A stretch of DNA of 60,076 nt from an uncultured Bacteroidales bacterium (GTDB lineage: Bacteria > Bacteroidota > Bacteroidia > Bacteroidales > Bacteroidaceae): assembly GCA_902801485.1 (NCBI GenBank), contig CADCIP010000022.1, positions 1 through 60,076 of the forward strand. The letters run 5' to 3'. The position numbers and the translations under genes were made by a program. Of the stretch, positions 269 through 51,393 are shown piece after piece. The notes under the pieces are model-generated. The model had not been told where the DNA came from. It saw nothing but the letters and a program-made list of their open reading frames with translations, and did not search any database. The first letter of the stretch is position 1, and each line of letters begins with the position of its first letter.

Positions 269-326
269 GAGTTTACCGTTTACAGTTTACAGTTTACGGT
301 TTACCGTTGAGAGGTTATCGGTTATG
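269..326. repeat. Heptamer tract, TTTACNG type, with GGTTATC units
   Basis: Five tandem variants of TTTACNG are followed by GTTGAGAGGTTATCGGTTATG. This is the first of about nine related tracts in the window. The rest of the gap to 584 shows no gene I trust; it holds a small AATCTC/GAGATT hairpin near 404-421. Confidence 0.8.
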
Positions 327-1575: not shown

Positions 1576-2382
1576 TCAGGTAAACTCGTGGACAAAACAG
1601 TTATAATTCTCATTCCCTCTGGCACCTATGGCAAACTCTATCAGGTCGAAGCTATAGTTCTTTAAGACCTTATGGAACACACTTGCCACAACATCTGCAG
1701 GATTCTCAAAAGCACCACACCCCCAAGCACCTAATATCAGCACTTCGTTTTTCTCCTTGGCAGCTACATCCAATATTTTCCTGATTCGCGATGAAAGCTG
1801 TTCCTCATAGTCGGCAGGCAGATCGTCTTCGTCCCATAATTCAGGCGCAGCACAAGTAATAACATTTACCTTATACCAGTCCTCCATAGGCATCATCTTC
1901 GGAAACACGAGACCTTCTTCCATCATGTCTGTTTTGAAAACTGTTACATCTGGCGTATAAATCAGGTCATCATTACCCATAAAATCTATTTCTCCTGCAT
2001 CGTATTGGTTAATGTGCTTCTGATAGAAGGGGGTATGCATGGCCTCAAGGCAGGGTAGCAACGTAGAACAATGGCATAAAGACTCTTCTTGTGCACCCGA
2101 AGAGAAAGGTGCGCCACCAACAGAATGGCTGTTGGCGAAATTCAGCACTGCAATTTTCTTGCCCTTATACTGACTTGCAGCCTCTAAGCTTCTGTGGTCA
2201 GTCACTTTATAAATGGTGTTGTTTCCGGTGACGGAAGTCAGTTCTATCTTTTCCTCATGAGCCACCATGTATTGGTGTGCAATGGAGTATTCCACTGCTT
2301 TCTTCAGTTCGGGCAATGTCTCGTACTGCTTCTTTGTGTCGGTCATCACCTCAAAGTTGATTCTTCTGTAATTGTACATCAT
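1576..2382 (-). CDS. TIGR02452-type PARG-like macrodomain hydrolase
   Basis: The 268-residue protein carries the hallmark GGAPFSSGAQEE at about residues 89-100, the counterpart of the GG-x-GAQEE loop of microbial poly(ADP-ribose) glycohydrolase-like proteins. It also has NFANSHSVGG, a DLIYTPDVTVF strand, and LGAWGCGAFENP, the phosphate-binding loop typical of macrodomains. The family is expected to remove ADP-ribose or bind related nucleotides in the cytoplasm; the substrate here is unknown. The start at 2382 is 1 base after the stop of the upstream GNAT gene; a Met at residue 13 is an alternative. It is the last gene of the SprT-GNAT-PARG operon. Confidence 0.85.
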   Translation of the reverse strand: MMYNYRRINFEVMTDTKKQYETLPELKKAVEYSIAHQYMVAHEEKIELTSVTGNNTIYKVTDHRSLEAASQYKGKKIAVLNFANSHSVGGAPFSSGAQEESLCHCSTLLPCLEAMHTPFYQKHINQYDAGEIDFMGNDDLIYTPDVTVFKTDMMEEGLVFPKMMPMEDWYKVNVITCAAPELWDEDDLPADYEEQLSSRIRKILDVAAKEKNEVLILGAWGCGAFENPADVVASVFHKVLKNYSFDLIEFAIGARGNENYNCFVHEFT

Positions 2383-2383
2383 G

Positions 2384-2962
2384 TTATCTGATTGGTTTGT
2401 CTTGGCAAAGGGTTTGAAAATAGGCGGTATTCCATATCTCGTAGCTTTTCCTTAATGCTGCTAACAATGATCCGAGCTCTATGTCGGGACCTTTTATATG
2501 GACATCGTAATTGGCATAATATGGACTGCTCCTTTTAAAGGGAACATTTCTGAATCCATTCTTCAGGAGAAATATTTTACGATGGACACATGTGGCCAGC
2601 TGATCGCTGTCGCTCATCGCTACTTCGCTGAGCAGCAAATAAGTACGGTCAGGATTACTACAGACATGACGCAGCAACATGGTGCCATAGCCTTTCCTAC
2701 GAAATGATTCTCTGACGTGAAGGTGCGTGATGTAGGTTGCCTGGAAGAAATCGAATGTTATGACATAGCCGACACACTGGTCTTCCTCTGCTATGGCCAA
2801 TAACCTTGGAGACGAGCTCCGGGTTTCGGGGCCATACAGAAGACTGGCCAATATCTGGGGTTCAACACGATTTTCCGACAAATCTTCTACTATAGACTTG
2901 TAGAACTCATCATCACAGGATACCTGTCTGATGGTAACGGTAGGTTGGGAATTCTTGTTCAT
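2384..2962 (-). CDS. GNAT-family N-acetyltransferase
   Basis: The 192-residue protein contains the acetyl-CoA binding motif A as LHVRESFRRKGYGTMLL (about residues 80-96), including the R-R-K-G-Y-G loop that grips the CoA pyrophosphate. Upstream strands (LLAIAEEDQCVGYVITF) fit the GNAT fold. The C-terminal 60 residues, with a His/Lys-rich stretch, are less standard and may form the substrate site. The substrate cannot be told from sequence. It begins 10 bases after the SprT-like gene and ends 1 base before the PARG-like gene, so the three are almost certainly cotranscribed. Confidence 0.85.
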   Translation of the reverse strand: MNKNSQPTVTIRQVSCDDEFYKSIVEDLSENRVEPQILASLLYGPETRSSSPRLLAIAEEDQCVGYVITFDFFQATYITHLHVRESFRRKGYGTMLLRHVCSNPDRTYLLLSEVAMSDSDQLATCVHRKIFLLKNGFRNVPFKRSSPYYANYDVHIKGPDIELGSLLAALRKSYEIWNTAYFQTLCQDKPIR

Positions 2963-2972
2963 TGTTTACTGT

Positions 2973-3434
2973 TTATCTGTCAAATAGCCGAATGAATATT
3001 TTACCCAACAAACCGTCCTTTGGCTTATCCACAATCAGTTCGAGGTCGTTATATACCATTATATTCATACCGTAGGTTTTGTTGAGGCGTTTCATGTGTT
3101 TTCTGAAATGCCTGCCATGACCTAACAATCCGTCAAAATGCTTCCCTTCAACGGTTGTTACATACATGTGTATCATTTCATGAACAAGAACATCCCTAAG
3201 TGTTTCATCCGTCCATCTTACATTTCTCGACATACCGATACGGCTTTCTATCTTACCGTTTTTCTTTGTTTCGAAATTATATTTCCCGTATGTACTGCCT
3301 GAAATTAACCAGTAGAATCTACATTTACCTAATTCCCCGTTGAAATACATCTTATTGTATTTGTCAAACAGTTCGTACAGTATTTCCCTACCGGTTTCCT
3401 TACCATTAAGAAGTAAAGTGTATTTCTTACCCAT
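2973..3434 (-). CDS. SprT-like zinc metalloprotease domain protein
   Basis: The 153-residue protein shows the zinc-site helix HEMIHMYV (residues 85-92) with a third ligand candidate in GHGRHF (105-110), the arrangement of SprT/Spartan-type domains. YELFDKYNKMYFNGEL near residue 20 is the usual N-terminal helix of this fold. Spartan proteins cut DNA-protein crosslinks in eukaryotes; the bacterial role is less clear. No C-terminal zinc ribbon is seen. This is the first gene of the operon. Its promoter lies inside the left 67-bp inverted repeat and is nearly the same as the promoter of the AAA+ gene at 5403. Confidence 0.85.
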   Translation of the reverse strand: MGKKYTLLLNGKETGREILYELFDKYNKMYFNGELGKCRFYWLISGSTYGKYNFETKKNGKIESRIGMSRNVRWTDETLRDVLVHEMIHMYVTTVEGKHFDGLLGHGRHFRKHMKRLNKTYGMNIMVYNDLELIVDKPKDGLLGKIFIRLFDR

Positions 3435-3454: not shown

Positions 3455-3521
3455 GTAACTGAATTCGGCTGCAAAGGTAAAGCGAAAATTCCTTCTAAAC
3501 GAATTCTATATACGTATATCG
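3455..3521 (-). repeat. Left 67-bp inverted repeat with a left-facing promoter
   Basis: This stretch is the reverse complement of 5315-5381 with 4 mismatches in 67. It carries a minus-strand TACCTTTG (-7, at 3472-3479) and a weakened -33 (TCG in place of TTG). It also holds the perfect 12-bp palindrome ATATACGTATAT at 3508-3519, upstream of the -33. It drives the SprT-GNAT-PARG operon. The match stops where the coding leaders begin and where the heptamer array starts. Confidence 0.9.
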
Positions 3522-3526
3522 TTTAT

Positions 3527-3840
3527 GGGTTAGCGGTTAGCGGTTAGCGGTTAGCGGTTAGGGGTTAGCGGTTAGCGTTATAAACAGTAAACGGTAAACG
3601 GTAAATCGGTTAGCGGTTAGCGGTTAGAGGTTAGCGGAACTGTAAACTGTAAACAGTAAATCGGTTAGCGGTTAGAGGTTAGCGGTTAGCGGCGAATAAC
3701 GGTAAACTGTAAACGGTAAACGGTAAACAGTAAATCGGTTAGTGGTTAGCGGTTAGCGGTTAGCGGTTAGAGGTTAGCGGTTAGCGGTTAGCGGAACGGT
3801 AAACTGTAAACGGTAAACTGTAAACGGTAAACTGTAAACT
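3527..3840. repeat. Left heptamer array of the island (GGTTAGC and GTAAACN units)
   Basis: About 310 bp of tandem GGTTAGC-like heptamers alternates with blocks of AAACGGT/AAACTGT heptamers. The orientation is the reverse of the array at 5060-5316, so the arms of the inverted repeat extend into the arrays. No gene is contained. Confidence 0.9.
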
Positions 3841-3875
3841 TATTTTCCTCTTTAACAAACCTTAAGATGAAAAAA

Positions 3876-3906
3876 TTGTCTGTTTCAAATGTAATACATA
3901 ATTTTG
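3876..3906 (+). promoter_or_regulatory. Promoter inside the island
   Basis: TTG at 3876-3878, exactly 20 bases, then TAATTTTG at 3899-3906. The predicted start is near 3912. Transcription would run right through the structured leader toward the gene at 4362. Confidence 0.75.
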
Positions 3907-3911
3907 CACCG

Positions 3912-4361
3912 AGTTTTCAAGCGTATGTGTCTGAAAAGGCACAAAAAAGCCTCAGCGTAAGATACTGTATTCGACCCGTTGAGCAATTCGCTACTAATTC
4001 TGCAGACTCTGCCGAAAGGCAAATGGAAATATATAGTATAGTCTGTCAGAGCAAAGGAGATAAGCGCCCTTATGAGTGGGGCGCCTCCAGAAGAGATCTT
4101 TGAAAAACAAGTTAGATCAAGAGACAGCCCCGAGCTGCCCCAACCGAGCACATAATCGCCACGGTGGGAAAATGATCTGAATTAACAGTTTAGTAATAAC
4201 CGATTAATTAAATTAGATTATGACAAAATTATTTTCTTTCTTGTGTATCATTTGTGCGGAGGTGTCCACGACCTTCTCACCAGGTAGTCGTGTTTTGCGT
4301 CAACCTTTGACGTCAGCGTTATTGTGTGTTATTATGTTGAACCAGTAAATACCTTATATAT
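3912..4361 (+). ncRNA. Long structured leader or small RNA of unknown family
   Basis: About 450 bases separate the promoter from the next gene. Foldable elements include TGCC-GAAA-GGCA near 4010-4022, enclosed by GCAGACT/AGTCTGT; GCGCCC/GGGGCGC near 4062-4083; GATCT/AGATC near 4096-4118; CACGAC/GTCGTG near 4268-4293; and CGTCAA/TTGACG near 4299-4313. I do not recognise a known RNA family (it is not tmRNA, RNase P, SRP RNA or a known riboswitch). It may be a regulatory 5' leader for the gene at 4362 or a separate RNA. The ends are inferred. A 78-codon frame starting at 3867 overlaps the promoter and is not believed. Confidence 0.45.
4220..4348 (+). CDS. Possible small hydrophobic leader peptide (42 aa)
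   Basis: ATG at 4220 opens a 42-codon frame beginning MTKLFSFLCIICAEVS and ending LLCVIMLNQ, with two hydrophobic stretches. It stops 13 bases before the ATG of the gene at 4362, so translation of the two could be coupled. The frame spans both strong hairpins near 4268 and 4299, so translating it would disrupt them, as in attenuator leaders. There is no homology evidence. Confidence 0.25.
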   Translation: MTKLFSFLCIICAEVSTTFSPGSRVLRQPLTSALLCVIMLNQ

Positions 4362-5060
4362 ATGACTATCGTAGCAGACAATCACCGCATATCCATCGAT
4401 GTTGACCCATTACTCGTTTTAATTTTCCTTGGCAACAAAGTAGATAAGAAGATACTCTACGACTTCGCAGCCCCCGACTTCAACATCGTCGTCAGACCAT
4501 CCGACAAGCGTCGTTACTCATCCAAGGACGGAGACTATGATATTGTTCTCCGCAAGAACGACGGCAAGGAAATACTCCTCGACATGCCCCATCGTGGTCC
4601 GAAAATGCTCTATGTACTCTCGCTCCTTTGCCAGAAAGTGGTAGGCGGACTTCCCAACAAGTACTTCAAGAACGAGAATGCAGCAAAAGCCATAGCATCA
4701 CTCTTTAACAAACTCTACCGTTCGGGTGGTGATTTATGGGTCAGCAGCTGCGCCGTTAACAATCACAACCTCTCGACATTCCGTACCCATGCCAAGAACG
4801 CCGTGGAAGAAAACACTGCGTTGGACAATGTCTCGCGCTATTGGTGCGGCTTCGAGGACGAGAAGCGCAGTGTAGGCAAGAAGCAGCTACAGCTTCGCAG
4901 AATACGCATTCCCAACGAACGTATAATCTTCGAGGACGCAACGCACAGCCCTGTCACCTTCGAACAGATTATGGATCAGTTGCCCCCATTGGAGGACCTG
5001 TTCGGATTCAGGAACAAGACCACAGAGTACATTCGGGAGCTACGATCGAAGAACAGTTGA
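4362..5060 (+). CDS. Unrecognised 232-aa protein inside the inverted-repeat island
   Basis: I do not recognise this protein. It has no signal peptide or membrane segment and looks cytoplasmic. The N-terminal 75 residues read as alternating strands (RISIDVDPLLVLIFLGNKV, then VVRPSDKRRYSSKDGDYDI). A helical middle follows (KAIASLFNKLYRSGG), then a basic stretch rich in Arg/Lys/Gln (RSVGKKQLQLRRIRIPNER). The C-terminus is EYIRELRSKNS. The basic region would suit nucleic-acid binding, but that is only a guess. It is the only substantial gene between the 67-bp repeats and lies downstream of a long structured leader. Its stop is joined at once by the right-hand heptamer array. Confidence 0.75.
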   Translation: MTIVADNHRISIDVDPLLVLIFLGNKVDKKILYDFAAPDFNIVVRPSDKRRYSSKDGDYDIVLRKNDGKEILLDMPHRGPKMLYVLSLLCQKVVGGLPNKYFKNENAAKAIASLFNKLYRSGGDLWVSSCAVNNHNLSTFRTHAKNAVEENTALDNVSRYWCGFEDEKRSVGKKQLQLRRIRIPNERIIFEDATHSPVTFEQIMDQLPPLEDLFGFRNKTTEYIRELRSKNS

Positions 5061-5316
5061 GAGTTTACGGTTTACGGTTTACTGTTTACTGTTTACGGTT
5101 TACTGTTTACGGTTTACGGTTCCGCTAACCGATAACAGTTGAGAGTTTAGAGTTTAAAGTTGAGAGACAGTTTATAAAGTTTAGAGTTTACAGTTTACCG
5201 TTCCGCTAACCGCTAACCGATTTAGAGTTTACAGTTTACTGTTTACCGTTTACAGTTCCTCTAACCGCTAACCTCTAACCGCTAACCACTAACCACTAAC
5301 CGCTAACCGCTAACCG
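5060..5316. repeat. Right heptamer array of the island (GTTTACN and GCTAACC units)
   Basis: Blocks of GTTTACGG/GTTTACTG heptamers are followed by GCTAACC heptamers, the reverse-complement order of the left array. It also contains the degenerate block GTTGAGAGTTTAGAGTTTA. Bases 5168-5218 recur exactly at 11510-11560. Confidence 0.9.
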
Positions 5317-5381
5317 ATATACGTATATAGAATTTGTTGGGAAGGGATTTTCGCTTTACCTTTGCAGCCGAATTCAGTTAC
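5315..5381 (+). repeat. Right 67-bp inverted repeat with a right-facing promoter
   Basis: This is the partner of 3455-3521. The promoter is perfect: TTG at 5334-5336, 20 bases, TACCTTTG at 5357-5364. The palindrome ATATACGTATAT is at 5317-5328, 5 bases upstream of the -33. Sequence identity ends at CAGTTAC, about 20 bases before the ATG at 5403. No target-site duplication is seen outside the two repeats. Confidence 0.9.
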
Positions 5382-5402: not shown

Positions 5403-7166
5403 ATGAAGAAAATGAGAAAGTCGTCACAAAGAAGAAAAAACAAAGACATGTTTGAGGAAAACGCTGGTATATGCGTGGACAATGAATATGTTGAACCTAA
5501 GGAATGGACCATTATTTCCGCTCTCGACAGAGTATTAAAACTGGCGGAATACAGTGAATTGAACAGCGAGTTCTGGGAATTGGCAGAGAATCCCCTAGCC
5601 TATCTGAGGGAAAGATTAGACCTTACAAACATGCAAATAGTGATTATCGCTATCTTGGCAGAAACGGGTGAGCCCCTCTCTTGGCGAAAATTAGGTGAGT
5701 ATGTGAACTGCAGCCGTCTGGCCATGATGTGCTATTCTGATGAAATTGAGGGTCTGCTATCCAAACGTTGGATAACACCCAGAGGTTGTAGAGAAGTAGG
5801 GACCTACTACCAAGGATTTGCATTAGAATACGGTGTTGTGACTGCTCTTCGTCAGAATAAGGTATTTGTACCAGAAAAGATTGACGGATTAGACGAACAA
5901 CAATTCATGCGCAAATTGGAAAGCCATCTTGACAAGAACCTGGAGAAAAACAATGTTCAATTCGCGGACATCGAAGCTTGGATGATGCAGCTTGTTGAAG
6001 CAAATCCTGAACTTCCGCTATGCCACGAGATTATGAAATTTACTGATATACACGAAAAATCCCTTCTGCTGATGATTGCATTTGACTATGCCCAGTGGGC
6101 TGATTCGGAAGACGAGGGACTTACGTTGAGCAGCATAGACGAGGACTACCCTGAGGATTGGGAGTGCAACGGATTACGAAACGAACTGCTGAACGGTACT
6201 CATATATTAATGAAAGCGGGTCTGATAGAGCATAAATGTGAGGACGGTATAGCAAATGTTGAACGCTATGTGCTGACAGAAAAAACAAAGAGAGACTTAC
6301 TTGCTGCCTATGAACCCAGCAGAAGCAGATGCAAGACGATATTGAATAAAGACAAGAGTCTTAAGAGCTTTAACGAGATAAAAGAGAAAACTATGTTCTA
6401 TAATTCGTTTGAGGAGGACCAAATAGAACAACTGACCCATCTTCTTTCTCAAGAAAACCTGACAGACATACAACGACGACTTGAAGAAGAAGGTATGCGG
6501 AAGGGAGTTGCCTGTCTGTTTTACGGTGCACCTGGTACGGGAAAGACAGAAACAGTACTACAGATTGCACGTAGAACGGGACGCAATATTATGCAAATAG
6601 ACATAGCGGGACTTCGTAACAAGTTTGTCGGTGAGAGTGAGAAGAACATCAAGGCCATCTTTACGCGATACAAACAGATCTGCAAGAAATCCGATAGTCT
6701 GCCGATACTGTTCTTTAATGAGGCTGACGGTATTCTGAGCAAGCGTACTTCTCTTAACAGCACCAATCCGACGGTCGAAAAAATGGAAAATACAATGCAA
6801 GACATCATTCTTCAGGAAATTGAGAACCTGGAAGGAATACTCATTGCCACAACAAACCTGACGGGTAACCTGGACGCTGCCTTTGAACGTCGTTTCCTGT
6901 TTAAAATAGAATTCAAGAAACCTGAAGCCAAGGTTAAGGCTAAAATATGGAAATCCATGCTTCGTTCCATTAGCAATGAAGACGCAAGGCTTCTGGCCGA
7001 ACGCTACGATTTCTCCGGTGGTCAGATAGAGAATGTTGCAAGGAAACGCGCAGTTAACTATGTCCTTTACGGCAAGAATGCTACATTGGACGAAATAGAG
7101 CACTACTGTAAATCGGAACTGCTTGACAAGAATAACGGACGAGCTGTTGTAGGATTTAAAATGTAA
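5403..7166 (+). CDS. AAA+ family ATPase with a long N-terminal region
   Basis: The start at 5403 (587 aa) is chosen because the frame upstream of it lies in the promoter; an upstream TTG at 5334 is itself the -33 element. The C-terminal part is a classic AAA+ module: Walker A GAPGTGKT at about 375-382, Walker B ILFFNEAD at about 435, sensor 1 ATTNLTGN, arginine fingers in ERRF, and a sensor-2 helix SGGQIENVARK near 540. The 360-residue N-terminal region is helical, with winged-helix-like stretches (SWRKLGEYVNCSRLAMMCY), and may recognise a substrate or partner. The specific job is unknown. It shares its promoter with the SprT-GNAT-PARG operon, which suggests common control. Confidence 0.85.
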   Translation: MKKMRKSSQRRKNKDMFEENAGICVDNEYVEPKEWTIISALDRVLKLAEYSELNSEFWELAENPLAYLRERLDLTNMQIVIIAILAETGEPLSWRKLGEYVNCSRLAMMCYSDEIEGLLSKRWITPRGCREVGTYYQGFALEYGVVTALRQNKVFVPEKIDGLDEQQFMRKLESHLDKNLEKNNVQFADIEAWMMQLVEANPELPLCHEIMKFTDIHEKSLLLMIAFDYAQWADSEDEGLTLSSIDEDYPEDWECNGLRNELLNGTHILMKAGLIEHKCEDGIANVERYVLTEKTKRDLLAAYEPSRSRCKTILNKDKSLKSFNEIKEKTMFYNSFEEDQIEQLTHLLSQENLTDIQRRLEEEGMRKGVACLFYGAPGTGKTETVLQIARRTGRNIMQIDIAGLRNKFVGESEKNIKAIFTRYKQICKKSDSLPILFFNEADGILSKRTSLNSTNPTVEKMENTMQDIILQEIENLEGILIATTNLTGNLDAAFERRFLFKIEFKKPEAKVKAKIWKSMLRSISNEDARLLAERYDFSGGQIENVARKRAVNYVLYGKNATLDEIEHYCKSELLDKNNGRAVVGFKM

Positions 7167-8114: not shown

Positions 8115-8347
8115 CTCTTGTCTTTCCTACCATCTTGAAAGCAAGCTTTCGATGGTAGTTTTTGTCGGATTAGATATCCTGGCGCCTGCCGCGGGCAGGC
8201 TTTCAAGTCTTTGTCTTTCATACCATCTTGAAAGCAAGCTTTCGATGGTAATTCTTGTCGGATTAGATATCCTGGCGCCTGCCGCGGGCAGGCTTTCAAG
8301 TCTTTGTCTTTCCTACCATCCTGAAAGCAAGCTTTCGATGGTATTCA
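8115..8347. repeat. 93-bp tandem repeat, 2.5 copies, between the M48 gene and tRNA-Thr
   Basis: Copies can be phased on TACCATC at 8128, 8221 and 8314, an exact 93-base period. Each unit holds a hairpin with ACCATC/GATGGT and GAAAGC/GCTTTC stems, and each of the two full units holds a second GC-rich hairpin, GCCTGCC-GCG-GGCAGGC. CTTTCAAG at the end of one unit can also pair with CTTGAAAG in the next. The second unit contains TCTTGTCGGATT, which also occurs at the 3' end of the adjacent tRNA gene (the first unit differs at its first base). Confidence 0.9.
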
Positions 8348-8360
8348 AGACAAATCCTTG

Positions 8361-10692: not shown

Positions 10693-11452
10693 TCTTTTCT
10701 CTCCTGCATTATGGGGCCAGAGCAAGAAAGACAAACAGCCCAGGGAGAAAGCTCCCCTGCTGAGTGGTGTGGGTGTGGGTATTGACCTCTGCGGACTGGC
10801 CATGAAGGGTGTAGGTGCCCGATTTGCCAACATGGAAATATGCGGACGTGTGGGACTGAAGGAGAAGTTCTTTCCTATATTTGAAATAGGTATAGGCGAT
10901 TGCACGCGTAACGGAGGAGAAACGACAAACGTATTCAGCACACGTGCCCCCTACTGGCGCATAGGTATGGACTATAATGTGAACAAGAAGGTGAACGGAA
11001 ACAGATTCCTGGTGGGTGTACGCTATGGATTTACCAACTACAAGTACGACTTCTCGGCTCCTGATTTTGAAGACCCTGTTTACGGGGTAGTCTCACCCTT
11101 GCGCCTGGAAGGACTGAAAGGAAACAACCAGTGGCTGGAATTCTGTCTGGGCTTTGAAACACGCCTGTGGAGCATCATGCGTCTGGGATATAATATCCGC
11201 TACAAGATGCGCACCCTGCAAAGTGTATCTGAACTGGGTGAACCGTATTTTGTGCCTGGCTTCGGCAAGAATGACAACAGCTGCTTTGGCGGAAGTGTCT
11301 ATCTGACATTCGATATTGGCAAAACTGCTAACCTGAAAGGACAGAAGTCTTTGTTTGGCAAACGGAAGAAAAAAGAGGAGACAAAGAATAAAGAACAGAA
11401 TGCACCACCCGAGGATATCGCACCAAGAGCTGCGAAGAGAAGAGGAGGGTAG
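10652..11452 (+). CDS. DUF6048-like outer-membrane beta-barrel protein
   Basis: The 266-residue protein has a signal peptide (MKIFRFISILLLISLFSPA, cut before QSKK). Alternating aromatic/glycine strands (WRIGMDYNVNKKV, FLVGVRYGFTNYKYDF, LEFCLGFETRLW) suit a small beta-barrel. The tail from about residue 225 is strongly basic and Lys/Glu-rich. DUF6048 genes commonly follow DUF6452 genes, as here. It starts inside the preceding gene. The function is unknown. Confidence 0.7.
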   Translation: MKIFRFISILLLISLFSPALWGQSKKDKQPREKAPLLSGVGVGIDLCGLAMKGVGARFANMEICGRVGLKEKFFPIFEIGIGDCTRNGGETTNVFSTRAPYWRIGMDYNVNKKVNGNRFLVGVRYGFTNYKYDFSAPDFEDPVYGVVSPLRLEGLKGNNQWLEFCLGFETRLWSIMRLGYNIRYKMRTLQSVSELGEPYFVPGFGKNDNSCFGGSVYLTFDIGKTANLKGQKSLFGKRKKKEETKNKEQNAPPEDIAPRAAKRRGG

Positions 11453-11655
11453 TTTACAGTTTATAGTTTACAGTTTACAGTTGAGAGTTGAGAGTGTAGA
11501 GTTTAGAGTCAGTTTATAAAGTTTAGAGTTTACAGTTTACCGTTCCGCTAACCGCTAACCAATAACCGCTAACCGCTAACCACTAACCGCTAACCGCTAA
11601 CCAATAACCGCTAACCAATAACCGCTAACCAATAACCGCTAACCGCTAACCGAAA
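11453..11655. repeat. Heptamer array before mntP
   Basis: TTTACAG-type heptamers and a degenerate GAGTTTAGAG block are followed by a run of GCTAACC/AATAACC heptamers, in the same order and strand as the array at 5060-5316. Bases 11510-11560 are identical to 5168-5218. The array reaches to within 10 bases of the mntP start and leaves no room for an ordinary promoter outside it. Confidence 0.9.
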
Positions 11656-19244: not shown

Positions 19245-19353
19245 CGGTTAGCGGTTAGCGGTTAGCGATTAGCGGTTAGCGGTTAGCGGCTAGCGGTTAG
19301 CGATTAGCGGTTAGCGATTAGCGGTTAGCGGTTAGCGGTTAGCGGCTAGCGGC
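19245..19353. repeat. Heptamer array (GGTTAGC orientation) left of the four-helix-bundle gene
   Basis: About 15 tandem heptamers (GGTTAGC, GATTAGC, GGCTAGC). The array supplies the stop codon and the last residues (AASR) of the gene at 19339-19719. Confidence 0.95.
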
Positions 19354-19719
19354 TTCAAGTTGCTTTTGAAATGATGACCGTAAACCAGATAACTGCTTCC
19401 CGATAACATTTATTCTTTCTTTTTCTTCTGCGAATTCTTTTTCACTGATATATCCTAAATCGAGAGCTATGTCAAGCTGACAAAGTGTTTCGGTTAATGA
19501 TCCATAAGCGATTTCAAGAAAGCGAATTTTCTCTTTAACTGAGATGCGGCCAGATCCTTCTGCAATGTTTGAAGGTACCGACACAACGGCTCTACGAAGT
19601 TGGTCGCTCAACGCATATATCTCGCGATTAGGAAATTTGTCTATGAAAGAATACACATCCCTAACCAGCAACTTTGCTTCCTTATATACCCTCAGATCAA
19701 AGAATGTAAACTTATCCAT
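19339..19719 (-). CDS. Four-helix-bundle protein (S23/IVP family)
   Basis: The 126-residue protein shows the standard family pattern: FFDLRVYKEAKLLVRDVY, LSDQLRRAVVSVPSNIAEGSGR (about residues 38-59), FLEIAYGSLTETLCQLDIA and a final helix. Proteins of this type were first seen as open frames in 23S rRNA intervening sequences and are widespread as single genes with unknown function. It sits between folD and ffh, bracketed by heptamer arrays in opposite orientation. The left array encodes its last codons and stop. That makes it look like an inserted cassette. Confidence 0.9.
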   Translation of the reverse strand: MDKFTFFDLRVYKEAKLLVRDVYSFIDKFPNREIYALSDQLRRAVVSVPSNIAEGSGRISVKEKIRFLEIAYGSLTETLCQLDIALDLGYISEKEFAEEKERINVIGKQLSGLRSSFQKQLEAASR

Positions 19720-19722
19720 CTT

Positions 19723-19752
19723 CGCTAACCGCTAACCGCTAACCACTAACCG
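19723..19752. repeat. Heptamer array (GCTAACC orientation) right of the four-helix-bundle gene
   Basis: Four tandem GCTAACC-type heptamers start 3 bases upstream of the gene's start codon. Together with 19245-19353 they bracket the gene in inverted orientation, the same layout as the island at 3455-5381. Confidence 0.9.
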
Positions 19753-51109: not shown

Positions 51110-51140
51110 TTTGCATTGTTCTTGGTTATTCGTAACTTTG
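51110..51140 (+). promoter_or_regulatory. Promoter of the cobalamin riboswitch transcript
   Basis: TTG at 51110-51112, 20 bases, TAACTTTG at 51133-51140. It is divergent from and overlaps the helicase promoter region. The predicted start is near 51147. Confidence 0.8.
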
Positions 51141-51150
51141 TACCCGCAAT

Positions 51151-51368
51151 TGGTTCTTCATGCCCCAAAAACGGGGCTAAACGGAGCTAAGATGGGAACG
51201 CAGTGAGATTCTGCGACATTACCCGATGCTGTAAGTCCTTTCTATGACTGACGGTCAACAGTGTCACTGGATTCAACCACTCCCTACGCCTAGGGTTGAT
51301 GGTTGAGTATATCTGGGAAGATCGCACCGCCTTATAAGGATAAAGTCAGAAGACCTGCCATTTGCAAT
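51151..51368 (+). promoter_or_regulatory. Cobalamin (B12) riboswitch
   Basis: The conserved core is clear: GGGAACGCAGTGAGATTC (51194 on), then CCCGATGCTGTAA (the CCCG-x-CTGTAA element), GTGTCACTGG and GGGAAG near 51315. The 3' B12 box is AAGTCAGAAGACCTGCC (51343-51359). These match the RF00174 pattern as I remember it. It has its own promoter. No ordinary gene follows on the plus strand; only two tiny frames and a terminator do. Confidence 0.93.
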
Positions 51369-51393
51369 AGCTGCTGCTTGCGGGATTACGAGT

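Follow-up and report, generated by a model that had tools for sequence, protein, structure and literature searches.

A probable three-transcript regulatory hub with mirror-image candidate promoters and a SAM-I/IV riboswitch in a Bacteroidales genome

The window analyzed here is a stretch of 60,076 nucleotides from an uncultured Bacteroidales bacterium (contig CADCIP010000022.1 of assembly GCA_902801485.1, positions 1 to 60,076). Between positions 3455 and 5381, a first-pass annotation made from the sequence alone had described an island bounded by 67-bp inverted repeats, with an outward-facing promoter in each, inverted heptamer arrays inside them, and a core holding its own promoter, a structured RNA and one gene. 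All of these parts could be recognized, the core promoter as a promoter-like sequence, and the structured leader was found to hold a SAM-I/IV riboswitch. The features of the region and of the genes flanking it are as follows:

1576–2382, minus strand: microbial PARG/TIGR02452 gene, third of the left operon (PF10021, E 4.8e-23; TIGR02452, E 1e-37)
2384–2962, minus strand: GNAT acetyltransferase gene, second of the left operon (PF00583, E 8.2e-9)
2973–3434, minus strand: F8, SprT-like metalloprotease gene, the first behind the left arm (PF10263, E 3.7e-17)
3455–3521, minus strand: left arm, candidate promoter of the SprT-like/GNAT/PARG operon; operator-to-minus-7 unit at 3471–3518, fitting the fixed-spacing pattern
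3521–3839: left heptamer arrays, of GGTTAGC and GGTAAAC types
3852–3907, plus strand: promoter-like region of the core, with a TTAACAAACCTTAAG box and a TAATTTTGC minus-7 box, read from the sequence; a similar box lies upstream in relatives
4109–4221, plus strand: SAM-I/IV riboswitch aptamer (RF01725, 51.0 bits versus a gathering cutoff of 41.1)
4152–4157, plus strand: 5′ strand of the pseudoknot (ATAATC), helix 4 of the covariation model
4216–4221, plus strand: 3′ strand of the pseudoknot (GATTAT), helix 4, overlapping an ATG at 4220–4222
4220–4348, plus strand: possible leader ORF of 42 aa, putatively coding, starting in the pseudoknot strand
4362–5060, plus strand: F1, 232-aa protein with no assigned family (no Pfam hit at E ≤ 1; 15 relatives)
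5052–5315: right heptamer arrays, in the opposite orientation to the left ones
5315–5381, plus strand: right arm, candidate promoter of the AAA+ ATPase gene; operator-to-minus-7 unit at 5318–5365, fitting the fixed-spacing pattern
5403–7166, plus strand: F2, AAA+ ATPase gene behind the right arm (PF00004, E 3.4e-23)

The two arms are reverse complements at 63 of 67 bases, and their inverse match, when the heptamer array is included, extends to 111 of 121 nt (92% in one comparison). With an arm as query against the organism's own 3.6-Mb genome, the partner arm was recovered at E 1.2e-23, which excludes a chance likeness. Both arms carry TACCTTTGC pointing outward, and ATATACGTATAT occurs twice genome-wide (3.6 Mb), once in each arm, with zero occurrences of the reversed control pattern. 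A third good copy of the arm stands solo on another contig of the same genome (C7; E 9.0e-19), which has no end sequence in common with the contig of the window that would place the two side by side; this copy faces a small HNH-family gene that clusters with the HNH_3 protein of a relative's locus (L021). Related genomes were searched for the 67-bp sequence, as the first-pass annotation had proposed, and among 101 genomes of the genus the arm was found in only one, namely its own. A close copy was likewise absent from all 15 loci of the F1 relatives, in which the best match covered 40 of 65 positions, compared with 32–38 for 30 shuffled patterns.

The stop codon of F1 falls within the first unit of the right heptamer arrays. 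Arrays of the same GGTTAGC/GGTAAAC-type units were also observed at window positions 270–304, 11451–11651 and 19246–19751, all three outside ORFs of ≥100 aa, whereas a single regular expression detected no heptamer arrays in the 15 relative loci, and no related report was found in the open-access literature. The arrays seem to be intergenic repeats of a general kind in this genome. Repetition of other kinds was seen in the window at 8150–8360, where a stretch of ∼120 bases near a tRNA-Thr gene is apparently in tandem repeat, and at 1065–1472, a 135-aa ORF built of repeated YDRSG-type units.

Weak copies of the arm in relatives led to a shared core motif that is also common to both arms, TTATAC[C/G]TATA (the candidate operator), followed at a fixed distance by TAnnTTTGC, which we take to be the Bacteroidetes -7 box. 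The motif is perfectly palindromic with a central G, as in the arms, but not with a central C, which prevails in the copies of the relatives. The pattern TATACSTATAW-N{22,34}-TANNTTTGC, which permits 13 gap lengths, was used to search the own genome and those of the 15 relatives, and yielded 24 sites in 10 of the 16 genomes, every one with a gap of 27 or 28 bases (spans of 48 in 22 sites and of 47 in two); the reversed pattern yielded no site in the same 16 genomes. The nominal probability for two of 13 gaps is 4e-22, which overstates the case because some of the sites are related by descent. An exact operator match was missing from six of the 16 F1 genomes. When 29 distinct sites were sorted by span, 25 had 48, three had 47 and one had 42 (28 of 29 thus at 47 or 48); the L072 site, which is among the 24 but close to the end of its contig, lies outside the position filter of this tally and of the gene tally given below. 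Among 139 genomes of the genus, the pattern occurred in the own genome (five sites), in G093 (two) and in G155 (one, with a span of 42), that is, at the fixed spacing in two of the 139, the own genome and G093. In G093, a single TATACGTATA is common to two divergent promoters. In viruses, the operator was taken to be background, with six matching stretches at the true spacing versus 11 at a control spacing, and blastp found no island family in the stretches fetched for these six.

Both arms have the operator at the fixed spacing to TAnnTTTGC that defines the class. On this pattern, each is likely, as a putative promoter, to serve the gene or operon that it faces, and presumably it is a working one. 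The close likeness of the arms might still be a by-product of recombination between the heptamer arrays, or of gene conversion between promoters, without regulatory meaning: it continues into the arrays, which are a repeated intergenic sequence in the window, and the three arm copies are far closer to each other than to the remaining sites of the class. However, the operator and the -7 box recur at fixed spacing in other genomes, and the regular expression found none of the arrays at the loci of the 15 relatives; the promoters thus look functional whatever made the arms alike, and a likeness devoid of regulatory meaning is distinctly unlikely. The left arm looks like a second, closely similar promoter copy for the divergent operon, one that might have arisen by way of the heptamer arrays.

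The genes found behind promoters of the class are varied but recurrent. Fifteen of 26 sites lead to one of the gene families that recur in the islands, namely AAA+ ATPase (five, one being the window), MetK (two), the F6 hydrolase (two, one a fragment), the F12 esterase (two, weak at 26% identity), and SprT-like, HNH-family, F14 and GNAT genes (one each); because the families were defined from the very loci counted, this tally is a description and not an independent test. The other 11 sites, including the off-spacing one in G155, do not lead to such a family. In relatives, the class promoters sit before AAA+ ATPase, MetK, GNAT and hydrolase genes; in G164, for example, it is MetK that follows. 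Contig C7 of the own genome has three class sites, one of them the third arm copy; genes for an HNH-family protein, an ADP-ribosylglycohydrolase and an N-formylglutamate amidohydrolase lie in the same stretch.

The aptamer upstream of F1 (RF01725 at 4109–4221) is the only SAM-I/IV riboswitch found in the own genome. Across this genome and those of the 15 relatives, at least 14 matches were found in at least 11 of the 16, at least 11 of them above the cutoff, and the cutoff was exceeded in the own genome and in at least eight of the 15 relatives' genomes; as 137 first-look candidates were scored and some genomes have more candidates, these counts may be low. An aptamer-like leader accompanies F1 in 14 of the 15 relatives (degenerate in L018), and is mostly lost in L026. 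An alignment (A4) was made of 15 of the 20 aptamers found, omitting L018, whose 5′ half is degenerate, L023, L024 and L025, which have long insertions, and an L088 copy that repeats L015. In these 15 sequences, the 26 proposed pairs are formed in 97.7% of cells, and six of the 26 changed on both sides; none of 500 shuffles was as high on paired cells or on double changes, and sliding the proposed structure along the alignment destroys the fit. The double changes lie in P1, P2 and the 3′ hairpin, with none in P3 or the pseudoknot, and of the five covariation measures, that of further pair types failed to exceed the shuffles (195 of 500). The structured RNA of the core contains a SAM-I/IV riboswitch, and membership in this family suggests that the leader RNA binds SAM. 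The insertions in L023, L024 and L025 are in the P3 loop, and in L025 the partner strand of the pseudoknot is also changed.

An ATG overlaps the 3′ strand of the pseudoknot in 17 of the 19 copies listed. At L088, it is within this strand that a NADAR-family gene has its start codon, which suggests translational control. The peptides of the leader ORF look alike in some relatives, and in seven others end at a stop within 6–16 codons. A MetK-family gene in L095 and an HNH-family gene in L096 are likewise preceded by riboswitch matches. Directly before the aptamer, at 4096–4103 in the window and in several relatives' leaders, a TTCTTTGA-like sequence was seen, which resembles the antitermination boxA of Bacteroidetes rRNA leaders. 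A riboswitch of another class, Cobalamin, lies elsewhere in the window (51134–51376; 79.1 bits versus a gathering cutoff of 31.5).

The 15 relatives of F1 are 60–69% identical to it over the alignment and come from MAGs or other assemblies of uncultured bacteria, labelled Prevotella or Prevotellaceae and, in one case, Bacteroidales, from ruminant guts where the source is stated. The C-terminus of F1 is shorter than in 14 of the 15, that of L026 being shorter still, and variants include a form lengthened at the N-terminus and another that has Sel1 repeats. On one contig of G166 (C67; L088–L090), three F1-family genes were observed, one of them within a longer protein. MetK lies downstream of F1, directly or after one or two genes, in six of the 15 relative loci (L013, L015, L016, L023, L024 and L025; Pfam was run on one of the six), and in L015 F1 is followed by NADAR, SprT-like and MetK genes; in the window, no MetK or NADAR gene is near F1. 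A profile of F1 (A1) found it within the genus in the own genome and G093 only, the same two that have the operator at fixed spacing, and in G093 ∼2.5 kb separate the operator from an F1-like domain, and a NADAR gene lies on the opposite side. A strict link between F1 and the operator is nevertheless ruled out by G067, of the same genus as the own genome, where two distant F1-like domains were found but the operator is missing from the entire genome; G254 likewise has a distant form of F1, with no operator within the 14 kb examined. AlphaFold models of F1 were weak (mean pLDDT 70.6 and 57.4), and a fold search with the former returned nothing at E ≤ 0.001. The idea that F1 is a winged-helix regulator is speculative, as the two structure predictions, the fold search and two PDB profile searches lent it no support. 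A further candidate regulator, with a WYL/WCX domain, is encoded ∼5.5 kb from F1 in L091 (18143–19189).

The window and G517, which belongs to another genus (g30), have the same order on a single strand, F1, an operator promoter and then the AAA+ ATPase gene. G517 is not independent of the Prevotella relatives since it shares its genus with G408, the source of the L024 contig; G170 has the same order of F1 and promoter, with an AAA+ fragment. The right arm, whose place relative to F1 and the AAA+ gene is that of the G517 promoter, therefore sits where such a promoter occurs elsewhere. F1 is followed by AAA+ on one strand also in L014/L097; AAA+ is upstream of F1 on the same strand in L020, L025 and L088, and in G067 and G254 the AAA+ gene and the distant F1-like gene do not share a strand.

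The first-pass annotation had offered three readings of the region, as a regulatory inverted duplication, a passenger element or a segment able to invert, and only the first of these is supported. In an element that moves or inverts, the 67-bp arms would be terminal or recombinase inverted repeats, with F1 and its leader as cargo, and a long inverted repeat does flank a single cassette. The patchy distribution of F1 (a broader profile, A2, found it in five of 399 genomes of the family, the own included and G408 being another) would fit such cargo, as would its varied neighborhoods, its varied order relative to AAA+ and the three family members in G166. Yet a Pfam scan of six ORFs of the window found neither a recombinase nor a transposase family, with nothing at or near the cutoff for a transposase, and the first-pass annotation had seen neither a transposase nor a target-site duplication; the arms are promoter-like, and their third copy is solo; no close arm copy exists in the 15 relative loci; the order and strand of F1, promoter and AAA+ recur in another genus; and F1 was not found in the viral-contig and phage collections searched. 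An element is therefore very improbable. The simpler alternative that the first-pass annotation had itself named, shared regulation through a promoter sequence found before unrelated genes, largely takes its place because of the solo third copy before another gene and the recurrence of operator and -7 box at fixed spacing.

Thus, the region is quite probably a regulatory hub with three transcripts that belongs to a chromosomal gene set. There is no need to list it among mobile or invertible elements, which removes a false lead. In this hub, a regulator would bind TTATAC[C/G]TATA, the center of which is ∼34 bases upstream of the start of the -7 box, and would presumably activate rather than repress. 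The mirror-image promoters would drive the SprT-like protease, GNAT and PARG genes leftwards and the AAA+ ATPase gene rightwards, probably at matched levels, so that the two outward transcripts might be equally dosed. F1 would be transcribed separately, from its own promoter and through the SAM-I/IV riboswitch. By analogy with known SAM switches, from which the direction of the response is taken, the aptamer and pseudoknot would close over the nearby start codon at high SAM and lower F1, and would release the F1 start codon at low SAM. The arrangement favored here is one in which matched promoters co-regulate the AAA+ ATPase and the SprT-like protease, and F1 has a SAM-sensing transcript to itself.

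As to what the gene set does, NADAR and PARG enzymes remove ADP-ribose (PMC11833690), and a NADAR gene of E. coli is within a LexA-controlled operon (PMC11125620); the simplest reading is therefore a regulon for stress or damage, ADP-ribose removal included, one branch of which senses SAM. A more specific one is an anti-phage or toxin-immunity island, in which NADAR, PARG, ADP-ribosylglycohydrolase, AAA+ and HNH proteins would undo an attack by ADP-ribose, reported by low SAM. Domains of the NADAR, PARG-like and ADP_ribosyl_GH kinds do occur in the gene set, its AAA+ domain is similar to that of IetA, and a PARG has been shown to act as immunity against an RNA-targeting toxin (PMC11833690). 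Despite these resemblances, the IetA match is limited to the ATPase region (its NCBIfam counterpart scored 86.6 versus a cutoff of 510 bits), and MetK and the esterases fit metabolism or general stress equally, so an immunity island is possible but doubtful. Rather unlikely, but of wider consequence, would be a two-input alarm regulon of gut Bacteroidales, in which a new regulator, possibly the F1 family, acting at TTATACSTATA and SAM-I/IV riboswitches reporting SAM depletion together switch on ADP-ribose reversal (NADAR, PARG, ADP-ribosylglycohydrolase), the AAA+/SprT protein-removal pair and a spare SAM synthetase; if true, the riboswitch would be a sensor of attack or damage. The analysis yields a sharp, testable promoter signature for a candidate regulon, and puts SAM riboswitches ahead of orphan genes and of genes of the NADAR and HNH families. 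Should this link be borne out, the SAM level would control genes of ADP-ribose reversal, a connection that was not found in the open-access literature searched.

Several known systems resemble parts of this gene set. The leader is like the SAM-I/IV class (RF01725) in that P1, P2, P3, the 3′ hairpin and the pseudoknot fit over 15 sequences and the score is above the cutoff; it differs in the genes that it precedes, here a family that has no name and in relatives genes that cluster with the NADAR, HNH and MetK families, the class being listed as "Several phyla, marine" in Table 1 of PMC2864571. With the DarT-DarG and DarT-NADAR toxin–antitoxin systems, the gene set shares ADP-ribose-removing enzymes (NADAR, PARG-like), but here several hydrolases are in one set, and no DarT-type toxin was matched among the ORFs scanned with Pfam, except for weak, below-cutoff ART-type matches in G093. 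Resemblance to the IetAS defense system lies in an AAA+ ATPase with a PADLOC IetA match (E 3.6e-28) and in a protease gene of the same set; the match covers the ATPase region only, however, and whereas IetS is subtilisin-like, the protease here is a SprT-like metalloprotease. Finally, the LexA-controlled ybiA operon of E. coli likewise has a NADAR gene in a damage-induced operon, together with helicase genes (PMC11125620); it differs in its operator, and the set described here has SprT-like, AAA+, HNH and MetK genes, part of it apparently under a SAM riboswitch.
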